Assembly (NCBI RefSeq): GCF_030068475.1
Contig: NZ_JAQOSP010000133.1
Location: 1 to 64,000, forward strand
Source: Roseofilum acuticapitatum BLCC-M154
Lineage (GTDB): Bacteria > Cyanobacteriota > Cyanobacteriia > Cyanobacteriales > Desertifilaceae
DNA length: 64,000 nucleotides
Direction of reading: 5' to 3'
Each line of letters begins with the position of its first letter. Position 1 is the first letter of the stretch. Shown piece by piece: positions 5,521 to 25,498 of this stretch. A program made the translations under genes and the position numbers. Under the pieces are notes generated by a model. That model was not told the origin of the DNA. It ran no database searches and saw only the letters and a program-made list of their open reading frames with translations.

Positions 5521-5556
5521 CGCTACAAGTCAAAAACGAGCTATAACACTACCGAT

Positions 5557-5934
5557 TTAAACTTAAAGCCAACAGCGAGCAAGATGCTCGCACTACTAGC
5601 TGTAAATCATTTAAATTTAAAGCCAACAGCGAGCAAGATACTCGGACTACTGGCTGTAAATCATTTAAATTTAAAGCCAACAGCGAGCAAGATGCTCGCA
5701 CTACTAGCTGTAAATCATTTAAATTTAAAGCCAACAACGAGCAAGATACTCGGACTACTGGCTGTAACTCATTTAAATTTAAAGCCAACAGCGAGCAAGA
5801 TACTCGGACTACTGGCTGTAACTCATTTAAATTTAAAGCCAACAGCGAGCAAGATGCTCGCACTACTGGCTGTAAATCATTTAAATTTAAAGCCAACAGC
5901 GAGCAAGATGCTCGCACTAGCTATAACTTATTTT
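5557..5934. repeat. 54-bp tandem repeat array, seven units
   Basis: Seven consecutive 54-bp units start at 5557, 5611, 5665, 5719, 5773, 5827 and 5881; the last is degenerate at its 3' end. Each unit carries ttaaatttaaagccaac followed by a 17-bp motif. That motif is either a perfect hairpin (gcgagcaagatgctcgc) or a mutated version (gcgagcaagatactcgg). Because 54 is a multiple of three, the array stays open on both strands and creates long false reading frames of 18-residue repeats. The hairpin core is the same one found in other intergenic palindromes of this window, so the array looks like local amplification of a dispersed element. Confidence 0.85.
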
Positions 5935-20725: not shown

Positions 20726-21094
20726 ATGGAACCTCTCTCTTTAATTATGGCGGCGTTAGTGGCTGGTGCGGCTAAGGCGGCGGGTGATGCTGCACCGGAT
20801 GCCTATCAAGGGCTGAAGGCGTTGATTAAGCGCAAGTTTGGCGGGGAACCGAAGGCAGAAATGGTGTTAGAAGAACATGAGAGCGATCCGGAAACTTACG
20901 AAGACCCTCTGAAGAAAAAGTTACTTGAAGCTGGAGCCGATCAGGATGAGGCAATTTTGGCGGCAGCTCGTAAGTTGCTGGAGGAGATGGAGTCGAAAGA
21001 CTCAACCCCTGGGGGCTTTCAGACCACCTTTGAAGGGGAAGTGAAAGGGGCGCAAGTTGGGACTCATAACCAACAAACCAATACGTTTAGTTAA
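20726..21094 (+). CDS. Small putative effector with C-terminal RHIM/BASS-like amyloid motif
   Basis: The 122-aa protein starts with a hydrophobic Ala-rich helix (MEPLSLIMAALVAGAAKAAG, residues 1-20) and an amphipathic Lys-rich helix (QGLKALIKRKFGG). An acidic helical region (40-90) follows. It ends in a Gly/Asn/Gln motif, FEGEVKGAQVGTHNQQTNTF (102-121). That tail aligns with residues 8-31 of the neighbouring STAND protein, with 11 of 24 positions identical. AQVGTHN resembles the VQVGxxN core of RHIM amyloids. Small helical effectors with such tails beside NLR genes are known as amyloid-signalling partners. I infer a membrane-active effector; there is no direct proof. A strong ribosome site is not obvious. 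Confidence 0.65.
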   Translation: MEPLSLIMAALVAGAAKAAGDAAPDAYQGLKALIKRKFGGEPKAEMVLEEHESDPETYEDPLKKKLLEAGADQDEAILAAARKLLEEMESKDSTPGGFQTTFEGEVKGAQVGTHNQQTNTFS

Positions 21095-21470
21095 GTCCCA
21101 GGTGGGGGTAGGGCGGGTTCAGGTTATTGATGGTGCGTTTCCTAGATTTGGGTGAACCCGCCCCTACAAGTCGAAAAATGGGTAGGGGCGGGTTTGTTTA
21201 TCCGTGAGGAGACTAACCTGTAACCTTCCTAAACCCGCCCTCCCCACCGGTTATGTCCATAGAAATGTGCTGGGGTGGGGCGGGTTCAGGTTATTGATGG
21301 TGGGTTTCCTAGATATGGGTAAAACCCGCCCCTACAAGTCGAAAAATGGGTAGGTCATCATAGCTAAACAGTTGTCATTGCGACCGCAGGGAAGCAATCG
21401 CTACAATTAGCGAAATAGTCGAGCAATACCCATTTTTAATTTTTAATTTTTAATTTTTAATTGAAACCAT
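21095..21470. other. 376-bp repeat-rich spacer between effector and STAND genes
   Basis: The spacer holds two ~75-bp direct repeats (21111-21185 and 21278-21353). Each runs from gggcgggttc through aacccgcccctaca to gaaaaatgggtag, and each is palindromic at its ends. A partial tcattgcgacc element lies near 21376-21420, and a tttttaa heptamer run at 21433-21462. No gene is seen. The repeats would separate the two genes unless transcription reads through. Confidence 0.75.
21433..21462. repeat. TTTTTAA heptamer tandem repeat before the STAND start
   Basis: About four copies of the heptamer end 8 bp before the ATG at 21471. This leaves little room for a ribosome site; the sequence gaaaccat precedes the start. 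The same heptamer occurs at 37495, 46461 and 47243. Confidence 0.75.
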
Positions 21471-24400
21471 ATGGCTGACGATACTTCTCAATTTGATTCC
21501 CAGTTTCAGGGAGACGTTAAGGGAGTGTCCATTGGTACGGGCAATGTTATTTACAATTACTTCTACAGTTATCAGAGCCAGGCTACAACGGAAGAGGTTG
21601 CAGAAACGGATAACCTGCCTTGTCCCTATCGGGGGTTATTTCATTTTGGCCCCAATGATGTCGAATTTTTCTTTGGGCGCGAGGATTTTATTAAGGAACT
21701 CTATCAGGCGACGAAAACGGAGCGGTTGATTCCGGTGTTGGGAGCGTCGGGGAGTGGTAAGTCTTCGGTGGTGTTGGCGGGGTTAGTGCCGAAACTGGTA
21801 CAGGAGGGTCATTGGCAGTTTACCCATTGTCGTCCGGGTTCGGAGCCGTTTCATAGTTTGGCATTATCCTTGGTTCCTTTGTATGCTCCGGGGTTGAATA
21901 AGACGGAGCAGATGGCTCAAGCGCGGCAATTGGCGGGTTATTTGCAGAAGGGGGAACTGCCGTTGGGGGATGTGTTTGCACAGATTCGGCAGAATTATCC
22001 CACTGACCAAATTTTACTGATTATCGATCAATTTGAGGAACTCTATACCCTCTGTGGTGAGGTGGAGATACGCCACCGGTTTTTAGATGCCCTGATTGCC
22101 GATTTACCGGGTACGGTGGTGATGACGATGCGGGCGGATTTTCTGGGGAATGCCCTGTCCTATCGGCCGTTTGCGGATGTGTTGAATGACCAGGATTACC
22201 TGTTGGGGCCGATGAACCGGGAGGAGTTGACGGAGGTGATTGTTAAGCCTGCGGAAGCTCAGGGGGTGGGGTTTGAAGCGGGGTTAGTGGAGCGCATTTT
22301 AGACGATGTGGATCATCAACCGGGGAATTTACCGTTATTGGAGTTTGCCTTAACGCAATTGTGGCATCAGCGACGGGGGAAGACGTTAACCCATGAGGTT
22401 TATGCCGCCATTGGTGAGGTGGAAGGCGCTCTCGCTCGTCATGCGGATGAGACCTATGGCACGTTGACGGAGGGGGAAAAGGAGAGGGTACACCAGATTT
22501 TTATTCAATTGGTGCGTCCGGGTGAAGGAGCGGAAGATACGCGACGGGTGGCGGTGAAAGGGGAGTTAGGGGAGCAGAGTTGGTCGTTGGTGAAACAATT
22601 GGCGGATGCTCGGTTGGTGGTTACCAGTCGGGATGGGCAAAAACAGGAAACGGTGGAAGTAGTTCACGAGGCGCTGATTCGGAATTGGGGTGAGTTGCGC
22701 GGTTGGATGGAGACGGATAGGACATTTCGCGCCTGGCAGGAGCGACTCAGGGGGGCGAAGCGACAATGGGAAGTCACGGGGAAAGATGCGGGGTCATTGT
22801 TGCGAGGAGCATTTTTAGCGGAGGCTCAGGAGAGGCTAGAGGAGCGTCCCCAGGACTTGGGCGCTGAGGCAGAGTTTATTCGGTTGAGTGTGGCGGAGAA
22901 AGAGAAAGTCAAGCGACGGGCGACAATGACAGTATCGGGGATTGTCATTGGTTCTTTGACCGCAGTTGTGATTAGCACTAGCTTATTTTTCACGGCTCGG
23001 CATCAGCAGAAGCAGGCAGAATTGAGTGAAGCAGATTCCCTAGCTCGGTATTCTCTGGCTCTGTCTAACGAAGGTACAAAAGACCTGGAAGCAGCCATTG
23101 AAGTGATTAAAGCTGGAAAAATCCTGCAAAAACACCAATCTAGCGATCTAGAGGTAATGAGCGCCCTAATGACTCAGGTCTATCAGAGTAGAGAGCGGCA
23201 GAGTTTTTATAGCAATCAGGGGTCGGTCTACAGTGTCAGTTACAGCCCGGATGGCCAGACTTTAGCTTCTGGGGGTAATGACGGAACGATCAAGGTGTGG
23301 AACCTAGAGACTCAGGCAGAAGTGGCTACCCTTACCGGTCATCAGGAGTGGGTCTACAGTGTCAGTTACAGCCCCGATGGAAAGACTTTAGCTTCTGGGG
23401 GTGCGGACGGAACGATCAAGCTGTGGAACCTAGAGACTCAGGCAGAAGTGGCTACCCTTACCGGTCATCCGGGGGGGGTCAGCAGTGTCAGTTACAGCCC
23501 CGATGGACAGACTTTAGCTTCTGGGGGTAATGACGGAACGATCAAGGTGTGGAACCTAGAGACTCAGGCAGAAGTGGCTACCCTTCCCGGTCATCCGGGG
23601 GGGGTCAGCAGTGTCAGTTACAGCCCCGATGGACAGACCTTGGCTTCTGGGGGTGGGGATGCAACGATCAAGGTGTGGAATCTAGAGACTCAGGAAGAAG
23701 TGGCTACCCTTACCGGTCATCAGTATTGGGTCAACAGTGTCAGTTACAGCCCCGATGGAAAGACCTTGGCTTCTGGGGGTAGGGACGCAACGATCAAGGT
23801 GTGGAACCTAGAGACTCAGGCAGAAGTGGCTACCCTTACCGGTCATCCGGGGGGGGTCACCAGTGTCAGTTACAGCCCGGATGGAAAGACTTTGGCTTCT
23901 GGGAGTGGGGACGGAACGATCAAGGTGTGGAACCTAGAGACTCAGGAAGAAGTGGCTACCCTTCCCGGTCATCTAGGGGGGGTCAACAGTGTCAGTTACA
24001 GCCCCGATGGAAAGACCCTGGCTTCTGGGGGTAGGGACGCAACGATCAAGGTGTGGAACCTAGAGACTGAGGAAGAAGTGGCTACCCTTCCCGGTCATCT
24101 AGGGGGGGTCTACAGTGTCAGTTACAGCCCCGATGGAAAGACCTTGGCTTCTGGGGGTGATGACGGAACGATCAAGGTGTGGAACCTAGAGACTCAGGAA
24201 GAAGTGGCTACCCTTCCCGGTCATCTAGGGGGGGTCTACAGTGTCAGTTACAGCCCCGATGGAAAGACCTTGGCTTCTGGGGGTGGGGGTCGGGACGGAA
24301 CGATCAAGGTGTGGAACCTAGAGGCTCAGGAAGAAGTGGCTACCCTTACCGGTCATCAGTGGGGGGTCACCAGTGTCAGTTACAGCCCGGATGGAAAGAC

Positions 24401-24692
24401 TTTGGCTTCTGGGAGTGGGGACGGAACGATCAAGGTGTGGAACCTAGAGACTCAGGAAGAGGTGGCTACCCTTCCCGGTCATCCGGGGTGGGTCAGCAGT
24501 GTCAGTTACAGCCCGGATGGAAAGACCTTGGCTTCTTCTTGGAGTGGGGACGGAACGATCAAGGTGTGGGATGTGGACTTTGACTCTTTAATGCAGAGAA
24601 CTTGCCAGAGAATTCGCCCTTATTTAGATAATCCTAATGCTCCTTTGACTAAAGAAGAGCGCCGCTTATGCGATGGAATCGGGGAAGAATGA
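21471..24692 (+). CDS. nSTAND1-WD40 receptor with N-terminal amyloid-like motif
   Basis: The 1073-aa STAND/NLR-like protein starts with the motif FQGDVKGVSIGTGNVIYNYF (residues 12-31), shared with the adjacent small protein. The nSTAND1 NTPase follows, with CPYRGLFHFGP and GREDF, Walker A GASGSGKS at 91-98 and Walker B LLIIDQFEEL. A winged-helix-like part reaches about residue 470. A hydrophobic helix follows near 485-507 (VSGIVIGSLTAVVISTSLFF), then eleven WD40 repeats (about 583-1040) that are almost identical. The layout is a sensor (WD40), switch (NTPase) and output motif (N terminus). It probably acts in conflict or defence signalling. The membrane helix suggests a membrane-tethered receptor. 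Confidence 0.88.
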   Translation: MADDTSQFDSQFQGDVKGVSIGTGNVIYNYFYSYQSQATTEEVAETDNLPCPYRGLFHFGPNDVEFFFGREDFIKELYQATKTERLIPVLGASGSGKSSVVLAGLVPKLVQEGHWQFTHCRPGSEPFHSLALSLVPLYAPGLNKTEQMAQARQLAGYLQKGELPLGDVFAQIRQNYPTDQILLIIDQFEELYTLCGEVEIRHRFLDALIADLPGTVVMTMRADFLGNALSYRPFADVLNDQDYLLGPMNREELTEVIVKPAEAQGVGFEAGLVERILDDVDHQPGNLPLLEFALTQLWHQRRGKTLTHEVYAAIGEVEGALARHADETYGTLTEGEKERVHQIFIQLVRPGEGAEDTRRVAVKGELGEQSWSLVKQLADARLVVTSRDGQKQETVEVVHEALIRNWGELRGWMETDRTFRAWQERLRGAKRQWEVTGKDAGSLLRGAFLAEAQERLEERPQDLGAEAEFIRLSVAEKEKVKRRATMTVSGIVIGSLTAVVISTSLFFTARHQQKQAELSEADSLARYSLALSNEGTKDLEAAIEVIKAGKILQKHQSSDLEVMSALMTQVYQSRERQSFYSNQGSVYSVSYSPDGQTLASGGNDGTIKVWNLETQAEVATLTGHQEWVYSVSYSPDGKTLASGGADGTIKLWNLETQAEVATLTGHPGGVSSVSYSPDGQTLASGGNDGTIKVWNLETQAEVATLPGHPGGVSSVSYSPDGQTLASGGGDATIKVWNLETQEEVATLTGHQYWVNSVSYSPDGKTLASGGRDATIKVWNLETQAEVATLTGHPGGVTSVSYSPDGKTLASGSGDGTIKVWNLETQEEVATLPGHLGGVNSVSYSPDGKTLASGGRDATIKVWNLETEEEVATLPGHLGGVYSVSYSPDGKTLASGGDDGTIKVWNLETQEEVATLPGHLGGVYSVSYSPDGKTLASGGGGRDGTIKVWNLEAQEEVATLTGHQWGVTSVSYSPDGKTLASGSGDGTIKVWNLETQEEVATLPGHPGWVSSVSYSPDGKTLASSWSGDGTIKVWDVDFDSLMQRTCQRIRPYLDNPNAPLTKEERRLCDGIGEE
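23217..24570 (+). repeat. Eleven 126-bp near-identical WD40 repeats
   Basis: Units of 42 codons start every 126 bp from 23217 (23217, 23343, 23469 and so on). Units nine and eleven are slightly longer by small insertions. Most codons, including third positions, are identical between units (for example agtgtcagttacagc and acgatcaaggtgtgg). Differences concentrate in the 2-4 codons after each TxGH and in the residues before the Asp of the GxDGT turn. This indicates recent unit duplication or gene conversion with diversification at exposed positions. Confidence 0.9.
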
Positions 24693-24816
24693 GTTGAGTA
24701 ATGAGTAAGAAGTTATCCCTCTTCGGTCACTTTCGGCGATCGCTCTATCCCTCTATTGAGGAGCGTTTGTTAGAATCAGAGCAATGTTCACGTTCTATGC
24801 ATACAGAGGTTTTTAC

Positions 24817-25092
24817 ATGACGATTATTCTTGATGATCTTGAGCCAGATCTATTAGCAAAGCTCAAAGACCAGGCAGTTGCTCACGGTCGAACCTTGGCC
24901 GAAGAAATCAAGGTTATTTTAACCCAAGAGTTAGATCAATCCCAAAAAATGAAAACTCCAGAAGAATTAGGATGGAGTGAAGGATTCTTTGAGAAAACAG
25001 CAGGAGCTTGTGCGGATGATCCGATTAGGCTTGACAGTGGAGGCATTGACTCGAACTTAGATCAGTCTTTGGCCAATGTCTTTAATGAGTAA
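24817..25092 (+). CDS. FitA-like ribbon-helix-helix antitoxin
   Basis: The protein starts MTIILDDLEPDLLAKLKDQA and continues AHGRTLAEEIKVILTQEL, the FitA/RHH pattern that binds DNA and neutralises a PIN toxin. A longer frame opens at 24784, but the ATG at 24817 starts exactly at the RHH domain and gives 91 aa. The C-terminal part (residues 45-91) is acidic and should wrap the toxin. The downstream PIN gene begins about 5 bp after, or overlaps, its stop. This is a standard type II pair in a toxin-antitoxin-rich area. Confidence 0.82.
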   Translation: MTIILDDLEPDLLAKLKDQAVAHGRTLAEEIKVILTQELDQSQKMKTPEELGWSEGFFEKTAGACADDPIRLDSGGIDSNLDQSLANVFNE

Positions 25093-25096
25093 TCTC

Positions 25097-25498
25097 ATGA
25101 GATATTTGTTAGACACCAATGTAATTATTACATACCTAAACAATCGCTCTACCGCTATTAGAGGACGCTTGCAGCAAATACCGGTTCAGGATATTTGTGT
25201 TTGTTCTGTTGTTAAATCTGAATTGTTTTATGGGGCAAACAAAAGCAATAATCCGGTTAAGACATTATCCAAGCAAAAGGAGTTTTTGTCAGAATTTGTC
25301 TCGCTTCCATTTGACGATCGTTCAGCAGAAGTCTATGGAAGCATTCGAGCGGATTTAGAGCGAAAAGGAACGCCGATTGGTGCGTATGATTTGCAAATTG
25401 CAGCGATCGCCATTTCCCATAACTTAACCCTGGTAACCCATAATACCAGGGAGTTTGCCCGAATTGATAGGTTGAATCACGAAGATTGGGATGCTTAG
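25097..25498 (+). CDS. vapC: VapC-type PIN-domain ribonuclease toxin
   Basis: The protein has the PIN-domain acidic set: D in YLLDTNVII near the N terminus, E in SVVKSELFYGA, D in GAYDLQIAAIA and the terminal TLVTHNTREFARI. Such toxins cleave RNA, often tRNA. Two further in-frame ATGs lie at 25076 and 25085, inside the antitoxin gene. The ATG at 25097 gives a start directly before the first beta strand (133 aa) and is preferred, though 25085 cannot be excluded. The family is certain and activity is likely, since all acidic residues are kept. Confidence 0.85.
   Translation: MRYLLDTNVIITYLNNRSTAIRGRLQQIPVQDICVCSVVKSELFYGANKSNNPVKTLSKQKEFLSEFVSLPFDDRSAEVYGSIRADLERKGTPIGAYDLQIAAIAISHNLTLVTHNTREFARIDRLNHEDWDA

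Follow-up and report, generated by a model that had tools for sequence, protein, structure and literature searches.

Filamentous actinobacteria and cyanobacteria encode NOD-like receptors (NLRs) with an N-terminal signalling motif, together with Bell-domain proteins that carry a C-terminal motif (PMC7889193). The families of these bacterial amyloid signalling sequences (BASS), including the RHIM-like BASS3, are credited to Dyrka et al. 2020 by PMC7889193 and PMC8086366. In Podospora, WD40 codons 7, 9, 25 and 27 are under strong positive selection; they lie on either side of codons 8 and 26, which are conserved, and modelling puts them on the top face of the propeller (PMC1805685). Here we describe a locus in a 64,000-nucleotide stretch of DNA (the window) from the cyanobacterium Roseofilum acuticapitatum BLCC-M154 (contig NZ_JAQOSP010000133.1, positions 1 to 64,000). 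A gene for a 1073-aa receptor (21471..24692, + strand) contains an array of near-identical WD40 units, and a gene for a protein of 122 aa (20726..21094, + strand) lies just upstream.

We suggest that the array probably serves as the sensor in an NLR-type bacterial receptor whose partner is the small upstream protein, its putative effector; the mechanism that we favor is set out below. The receptor gene appears to be the recognition component of a switch made of two genes and acting in cell death or immunity. The two genes are best read as an NLR/effector pair of the bacterial amyloid type, which is already on record.

Codon-focused variation in the WD40 array

The eleven WD40 units that a first-pass annotation had claimed from position 23217 are real. 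All are in the frame of the open reading frame 21471-24692; the first starts at 23217, the eleventh at 24483, and the array spans 23217..24572 (+ strand). Tandem Repeats Finder gave a period of 126, with 10.7 copies and 91% matches. The claimed unit length of 126 bp (42 codons) therefore stands for the array, with two departures: unit 9 is 132 bp (44 codons), and unit 11, which carries a 2-codon insert, departs from the consensus past its Trp. Pairwise nucleotide identity of the 11 units was 85-98% (mean 91%). The units had also been said to match at almost every position, including silent ones. This did not hold, as 28 of the 126 nucleotide columns vary and there are eight silent changes outside the seven most variable codons.

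We found that the variation was focused on a few codons, as had been claimed, and was not spread uniformly along the unit. Scored as alleles minus one per codon, and tallied by hand from the codon table, the minimal amino-acid changes of the array totalled 22. Sixteen of these fell in codons 1, 2, 3, 5, 20, 21 and 23 (7 of 42 codons; binomial p 1e-8), a set that was picked after inspection of the data. A four-codon set taken from a published paper (PMC1805685), codons 3, 5, 21 and 23, held 10 of the 22 changes (binomial p 1e-5), and only 74 of 111,930 four-codon subsets did as well. Beyond the hot patches, codons 14, 34 and 40 varied too (Q/K, A/E and T/P, respectively).

The changing codons appear to be those of the fungal HET-D/HET-E recognition surface. 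By spacing, fungal codons 7, 9, 25 and 27 would correspond to unit codons 3, 5, 21 and 23; the mapping is our own, and we made it because the spacing of 18 is the same and each pair flanks a conserved codon. A second fungal study sorts repeats by positions 10, 11, 12, 14, 30, 32 and 39 (PMC12222747), which translate to codons 1, 2, 3, 5, 21, 23 and 30 here. The first six vary, and codon 30 varies only where unit 11 leaves the consensus. The four-codon mask was the best of 42 circular shifts in the window and in two other arrays, L135 and L136. In 11 further arrays it ranked first in seven and second in four; arrays of fewer than five units were excluded from this ranking and from the pN/pS comparison below.

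The best sequence match of the array in the PDB was 2YMU (E 1.3e-174), a WRAP-type propeller that we take to be Npun_R6612. An AlphaFold2 model of the receptor (mean predicted local distance difference test score, pLDDT, 81; predicted template modelling score, pTM, 0.48) had strands as expected for WD40. The known propellers listed fit the model at only ~6-9 Å, and 2YMU at 15 Å. The 11 blades may form a single closed ring, divide into 7+4, or complete a propeller by oligomerization. At a mean nucleotide identity of 91% across the 11 units, the array lies above the >60% blade-to-blade identity used as a criterion for WRAP (PMC9218822).

Eleven repeats are also found in the commonest reactive fungal alleles, for which the model has two propellers of seven blades each, three of the blades being cryptic (PMC12222747). 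The equal count may be chance, because eight related arrays (mean amino-acid identity >70%) span at least 4 to at least 17 parsed units. Parsed counts are lower bounds because the regular expression used misses insert-bearing units; in the window it kept 9 of 11 and missed the two with inserts.

Selection and exchange among units

We compared nonsynonymous with synonymous variation among units, each per site (pN/pS). Over the whole unit, pN/pS in the window was 0.76. The 35 codons other than the seven gave 0.24, and the four codons gave 6.5 when set against the few silent sites that they themselves contain. Against the silent sites of codons 1-28 (eight parsed units), pN at the four codons over pS was 2.9. 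The comparison covered 14 arrays, with the last unit of each and units containing N dropped. The four-codon ratio was 1.8-7.7 in all nine young arrays (pS <0.35), and in the same nine arrays codons 1-28 minus the six variable ones gave 0.09-0.26. In five older arrays (pS >=0.47), the four-codon ratio was 0.82-1.10.

Recent amplification with relaxed constraint might also explain a young array; the loop codons would be loosely held and the gene would encode an ordinary scaffold protein. Highly repetitive WD40 arrays are common in cyanobacteria (PMC9218822, PMC5587647), and diversity at predicted interaction hotspots has already been noted for such proteins (PMC5587647). The other WD40 arrays of the same genome favor this alternative and weigh against the sensor reading. 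Five of six distinct control arrays varied at the same positions and ranked first on the positional test (7 of 8 rows, two pairs of rows being identical genes). These controls were not filtered for nSTAND1, and four of the six have an in-frame P-loop; of the P-loop-free arrays, L009 ranked first and L016 fifth. pN/pS was raised in L009 (2.74, in a frame without an NTPase) and in L010 (1.84). Deletion of the NTPase in two sister genomes (see below) also fits relaxed constraint. However, relaxed constraint predicts pN near pS, and the four-codon ratio was well above this in the window and at least 1.8 in 9 of 9 young arrays. In addition, the four codons held 10-11 nonsynonymous and 0-1 synonymous changes, compared to 6 and 8 at the 35 codons outside the seven (Fisher p 0.003-0.017). 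We consider relaxed constraint unlikely, although it is the alternative that we take most seriously.

Because five of the six other arrays of the genome rank first too, the location of the variation is a general WD40 property, and we rejected positional ranking as proof of immune selection. The pN excess is stronger evidence than position, though it comes from a small sample and other architectures show it as well. Immune selection is not proved by the pattern alone, because top-face variability is common and pN/pS is raised in L009 and L010. The first-pass inference of a rapidly reshaped recognition surface is supported in part: pN exceeds pS at the four codons, but an immune cause does not follow, as two of the control arrays have a raised ratio too.

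The proposal that repeats are shuffled was borne out: sites recombine among units. Four-gamete conflicts were found in 13 of 15 informative site pairs outside the hot codons and in 54 of 91 pairs over all sites. Arrays in related genomes differed in repeat number and content. In the nine young arrays, 86 of 93 units had their nearest unit in their own array; across all 14 arrays the figure was 115 of 147. This own-array nearness holds though receptors L217-L222 are 65-71% identical to that of the window (aligned part of the first 600 residues). A DNA search of the window's own genome with units 1-10 returned the array itself only, with no second copy. Repeat exchange in this genome is thus within one gene, because units 1-10 have no other DNA match. 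A family-wide exchange like that of Podospora, with units moving between several genes, would agree with a codon pattern that is the same as in HET-D/HET-E, but not with the result of this search, and we regard it as very improbable.

It is also conceivable that a diversity-generating retroelement (DGR) rewrites the codons by programmed mutagenesis. DGRs diversify nSTAND1-linked sensors in multicellular bacteria (PMC10907252), codon 5 reads NNC (TAC, AGC, AAC or ACC), and the genome contains six profile matches to RVT_1. The majority bases at the 28 variable sites were G (13), A (9), C (5) and T (1). With A at only 9 of 28, the changes are not A-specific, and the DNA search of the genome yielded no further copy of the array. 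On the base pattern and the lack of a second copy we rejected a DGR origin (the six RVT_1 matches being unsorted by type), and find it hardly credible.

The receptor and its putative, motif-matched effector

The receptor consists of an N-terminal motif, an nSTAND1 NTPase, a membrane-like segment, the 11 WD40 units and a tail with a cysteine pair. The first-pass annotation had not reported the partner gene, the motif common to both proteins or the membrane-like segment. Its best named relatives are mostly from cyanobacteria. The NTPase (residues 52-440; 21624..22790, + strand) matched Pfam PF20703 (E 1.6e-120; 403.7 bits, with a cut-off of 27.1), and nSTAND1 is the NTPase among the best 25 of 72 Pfam families listed for the receptor. 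The P-loop residues are invariant in a 12-sequence alignment. No fused N-terminal effector domain is present, as only 51 residues precede the NTPase match. PADLOC gave no match on the receptor or on the effector.

The effector and NLR genes are adjacent on one strand, and the same layout recurs in related genomes. The 122-aa protein had no direct match in Pfam, PADLOC or NCBIfam. It comprises a predicted helical (Bell/HetE-N-like) domain and a C-terminal tail of low model confidence, and its maximum 19-residue hydropathy is 1.44. An AlphaFold2 single-sequence model had five main helices (mean pLDDT 56; residues 93-122 <50). Of 386 genomes sampled across the phylum, 23 have relatives of the effector, as do 5 of the 6 genomes of the genus; in most loci these relatives adjoin STAND-like genes. 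Pfam HetE-N (PF20701) was matched by 12 of 27 effector relatives (E up to 0.1, best 3.2e-21). A rescan of 10 relatives placed seven above the curated cut-off and one below, with two giving no match. The window effector is tied to HetE-N via homologues, first L220 (63% over 103 residues) and then L217, partly through the common motif tail. The effector family thus appears to be related to HetE-N. An uncharacterised effector domain has been described at the N-terminus of some fungal HetE proteins (PMC8195603); by our own reading, this is PF20701.

We found that the C-terminal tail of the effector matches the N-terminus of its receptor. The putative effector motif, FQTTFEGEVKGAQVGTHNQQTNTFS, lies at 21017..21091 (+ strand), and the receptor motif, FDSQFQGDVKGVSIGTGNVIYNYFY, at residues 8-32 (21492..21566, + strand). 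We compared effector tails with receptors in 18 pairs: that of the window, that of L158, and 16 chosen from the 28 loci L162-L189. The 12 loci left out were near duplicates of a chosen one or had no usable pair (L180, L183, L185-L187). The region used was the first 60 residues of the partner for L158, whose motif is N-terminal, and the first 90 residues of the receptor frame for L163. The effector's own partner scored first in 12 of 18 pairs and among the top three in 17 of 18. The summed own-pair score was 1188, which none of 20,000 permutations reached (maximum 847); the 18 pairs are not independent, because some have one motif class in common (e.g., L166 and L168). The window pair scored 58, compared to a median of 20 for the others, and ranked second of 18. 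Such matching recurs in the phylum. Several dissimilar motif classes exist, matched by eye within most pairs.

Two other loci have unusual arrangements. On contig C6 of the same genome (L158:2846-5998), a paralogous receptor with a pentapeptide-like sensor lies beside a gene for a 144-aa protein. There, the N-terminal segment of the small protein matches the receptor N-terminus, unlike the usual C-terminal position of the motif. At L185:116-643, an open frame begins as the front of an effector and continues as sequence resembling the part of a receptor past its NTPase; this is likely a deletion product.

Hydropathy, in the window and its orthologues, predicted a single membrane segment at residues 491-509 (22941..22997, + strand), between the NTPase and the WD40 region. 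Among 19 receptor rows (the window and L217-L234), 18 have exactly one such segment; the exception is a 417-aa open frame that ends before the segment position. Nine of 11 broader relatives also passed the threshold for a membrane segment. Lys and Arg were commoner on the NTPase side of the segment in 17 of 18 rows, with one tie. AlphaFold2 gave pLDDT <50 at residues 1-46, which include the motif, and at 485-507.

Cys1045 and Cys1067, in the C-terminal tail (24573..24689, + strand), are the only cysteines of the window receptor after the membrane segment. The pair recurs at a spacing of 21-22 in 15 of the 19 rows, including the window. The four rows without it (L228, L232-L234) are short open frames or one with 300 N. 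In 4 of the 15 (L223, L227, L229 and L230) the sequence extends past the pair. Of the 11 broader relatives, six have the pair at a spacing of 21-22, three at 24-25, and two lack it. The positive-inside rule and the expected disulphide suggest that the WD40 domain lies outside the cytoplasm. A tentative extension, which we put forward as possible but doubtful, is a membrane-spanning NLR with a rapidly changing, disulphide-capped WD40 sensor outside and the NTPase and templating motif inside. Contact at the envelope with a neighbour cell or phage might then trigger the matched effector inside the cell, in a bacterial counterpart of fungal cell-surface non-self recognition.

In the mechanism that we favor, we infer ligand binding, amyloid assembly and effector toxicity. 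A ligand would bind the variable top face of the WD40 propeller or propellers, and the nSTAND1 NTPases would then cluster. The disordered N-terminal motifs would form a templating assembly, RHIM- or BASS3-like, that draws in the predicted helical effector and converts its matching C-terminal motif. The converted effector would act on the membrane, and the cell would be stopped or killed. Recombination among units would even out the scaffold and reshuffle the recognition codons, where selection would retain new residues.

Besides the control arrays, several observations count against the sensor reading. The effector model is of low confidence and too weak for a structure search. One of the 18 pairs (L182) has no motif match. 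The likeness of the motif to the RHIM core (BASS3-like) was judged by eye and is presumptive. Recurrent mutation could also yield four-gamete conflicts, and in older arrays the nearest unit is seldom in the same array (0 of 8 units in L226; 1 of 7 in L231). Some genomes keep the effector with no intact receptor beside it, so pairing of effector and receptor is not obligate. Finally, the number of units was read from a draft assembly (154 contigs), and a fungal study cautions that arrays of this type are misread when assembled from short reads (PMC12222747).

Sister genomes and comparison with known systems

Among the matches listed for six draft genomes of the genus, only those in the window genome include an intact receptor of this type. 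The comparison with sister strains proposed in the first-pass annotation thus yielded no allelic series: in the five other genomes the receptor has been deleted or has decayed, or none was found. G001 has the same site, with an ABC transporter and a toxin-antitoxin pair as flanks (95% and 98% identical, respectively), and keeps the effector, but the first 14 codons of the receptor are joined directly to the WD40 region in a different frame. In G005 the locus lies at a different site; there, a deletion with TTTCA at the junction has removed the NTPase, and the start is not in frame with the open WD40 stretch, which has at least 13 parsed units. These NTPase deletions are independent losses, because each remnant keeps bases that the other lacks. 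G003 and G004 have an effector without a neighbouring receptor, and in G004 an NTPase fragment lies near an open reading frame that resembles a transposase by eye. No effector match was found in G002. That genome does contain a WD40 array (L136:2579-5956) of at least 14 parsed units with a similar C-terminal cap; its N-terminal half does not match the window receptor, as if the sensor had been joined to another NTPase.

Other elements lie near the pair. Directly 3' of the receptor is a VapBC-like toxin-antitoxin pair (24784-25495, + strand), ~98% identical in G001; its VapC is above the NCBIfam cut-off, and the antitoxin is FitA-like, slightly under the Pfam cut-off. Two copies of a ~70-bp element lie between effector and receptor (21100-21340), and one matching copy adjoins the effector in G001, G003, G004 and G005. 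Farther upstream, at 5555-5919, is an apparently intergenic 54-bp tandem repeat (6.8 copies, 94%) with GCGAGCAAGATGCTCGC in several units and an altered form in others.

The locus shares features with several described systems. Like BASS NLR/Bell pairs, it has an NLR gene adjacent to one for a small, putatively helical effector, with the motif at the receptor N-terminus and the effector C-terminus. Compared by description (PMC7889193, PMC8086366), it appears to differ from them in combining this layout with a high-identity WD40 array and a membrane segment. WRAP, too, is a STAND protein of cyanobacteria whose WD40 blades are nearly identical. It has 14 of them, however, and the gene that its own is coupled to encodes a TIR-STAND protein rather than a small motif-bearing effector (PMC9218822). 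Highly repetitive prokaryotic WD40 proteins (Hu et al. 2017) likewise have conserved repeats that are highly diverse at their predicted interaction hotspots, and the accessible parts of that account do not mention receptor/effector pairing (PMC5587647). HetE-N (PF20701) is matched by the effector relatives, whereas the window protein and its nearest relatives tested gave no direct match. Searches of open-licence papers did not turn up the combination of a WD40 array with a motif-matched pair; Dyrka et al. 2020 may contain it.

The sensor also has a parallel in fungal HNWD proteins. As in HET-D and HET-E, a STAND-type NTPase is joined to C-terminal high-identity WD40 repeats, and the same four codons vary (PMC1805685, PMC2873952, PMC12222747). 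There are 11 repeats, as in the most common reactive alleles, and inactive receptors are frequent in both. Unlike HNWD proteins, the receptor has a predicted membrane segment, and its putative effector in a separate gene with no N-terminal effector fusion; where HNWD proteins carry NACHT, its NTPase appears to be nSTAND1, on the best 25 of 72 Pfam families listed. No exchange between paralogues was seen in the own-genome DNA search. The WD40 sensor is best read as working like that of fungal HNWD proteins, yet the receptor is no member of the HNWD family. A high-identity WD40 array with fungal-like codon diversification is now placed in a bacterial motif-matched NLR/effector pair. On this reading, fungal and bacterial receptors vary the same four loop codons of a WD40 unit, and bacterial recognition specificity could be tested codon by codon. 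With an extracytoplasmic sensor, the envelope would be the place to ask what these bacterial NLRs perceive.

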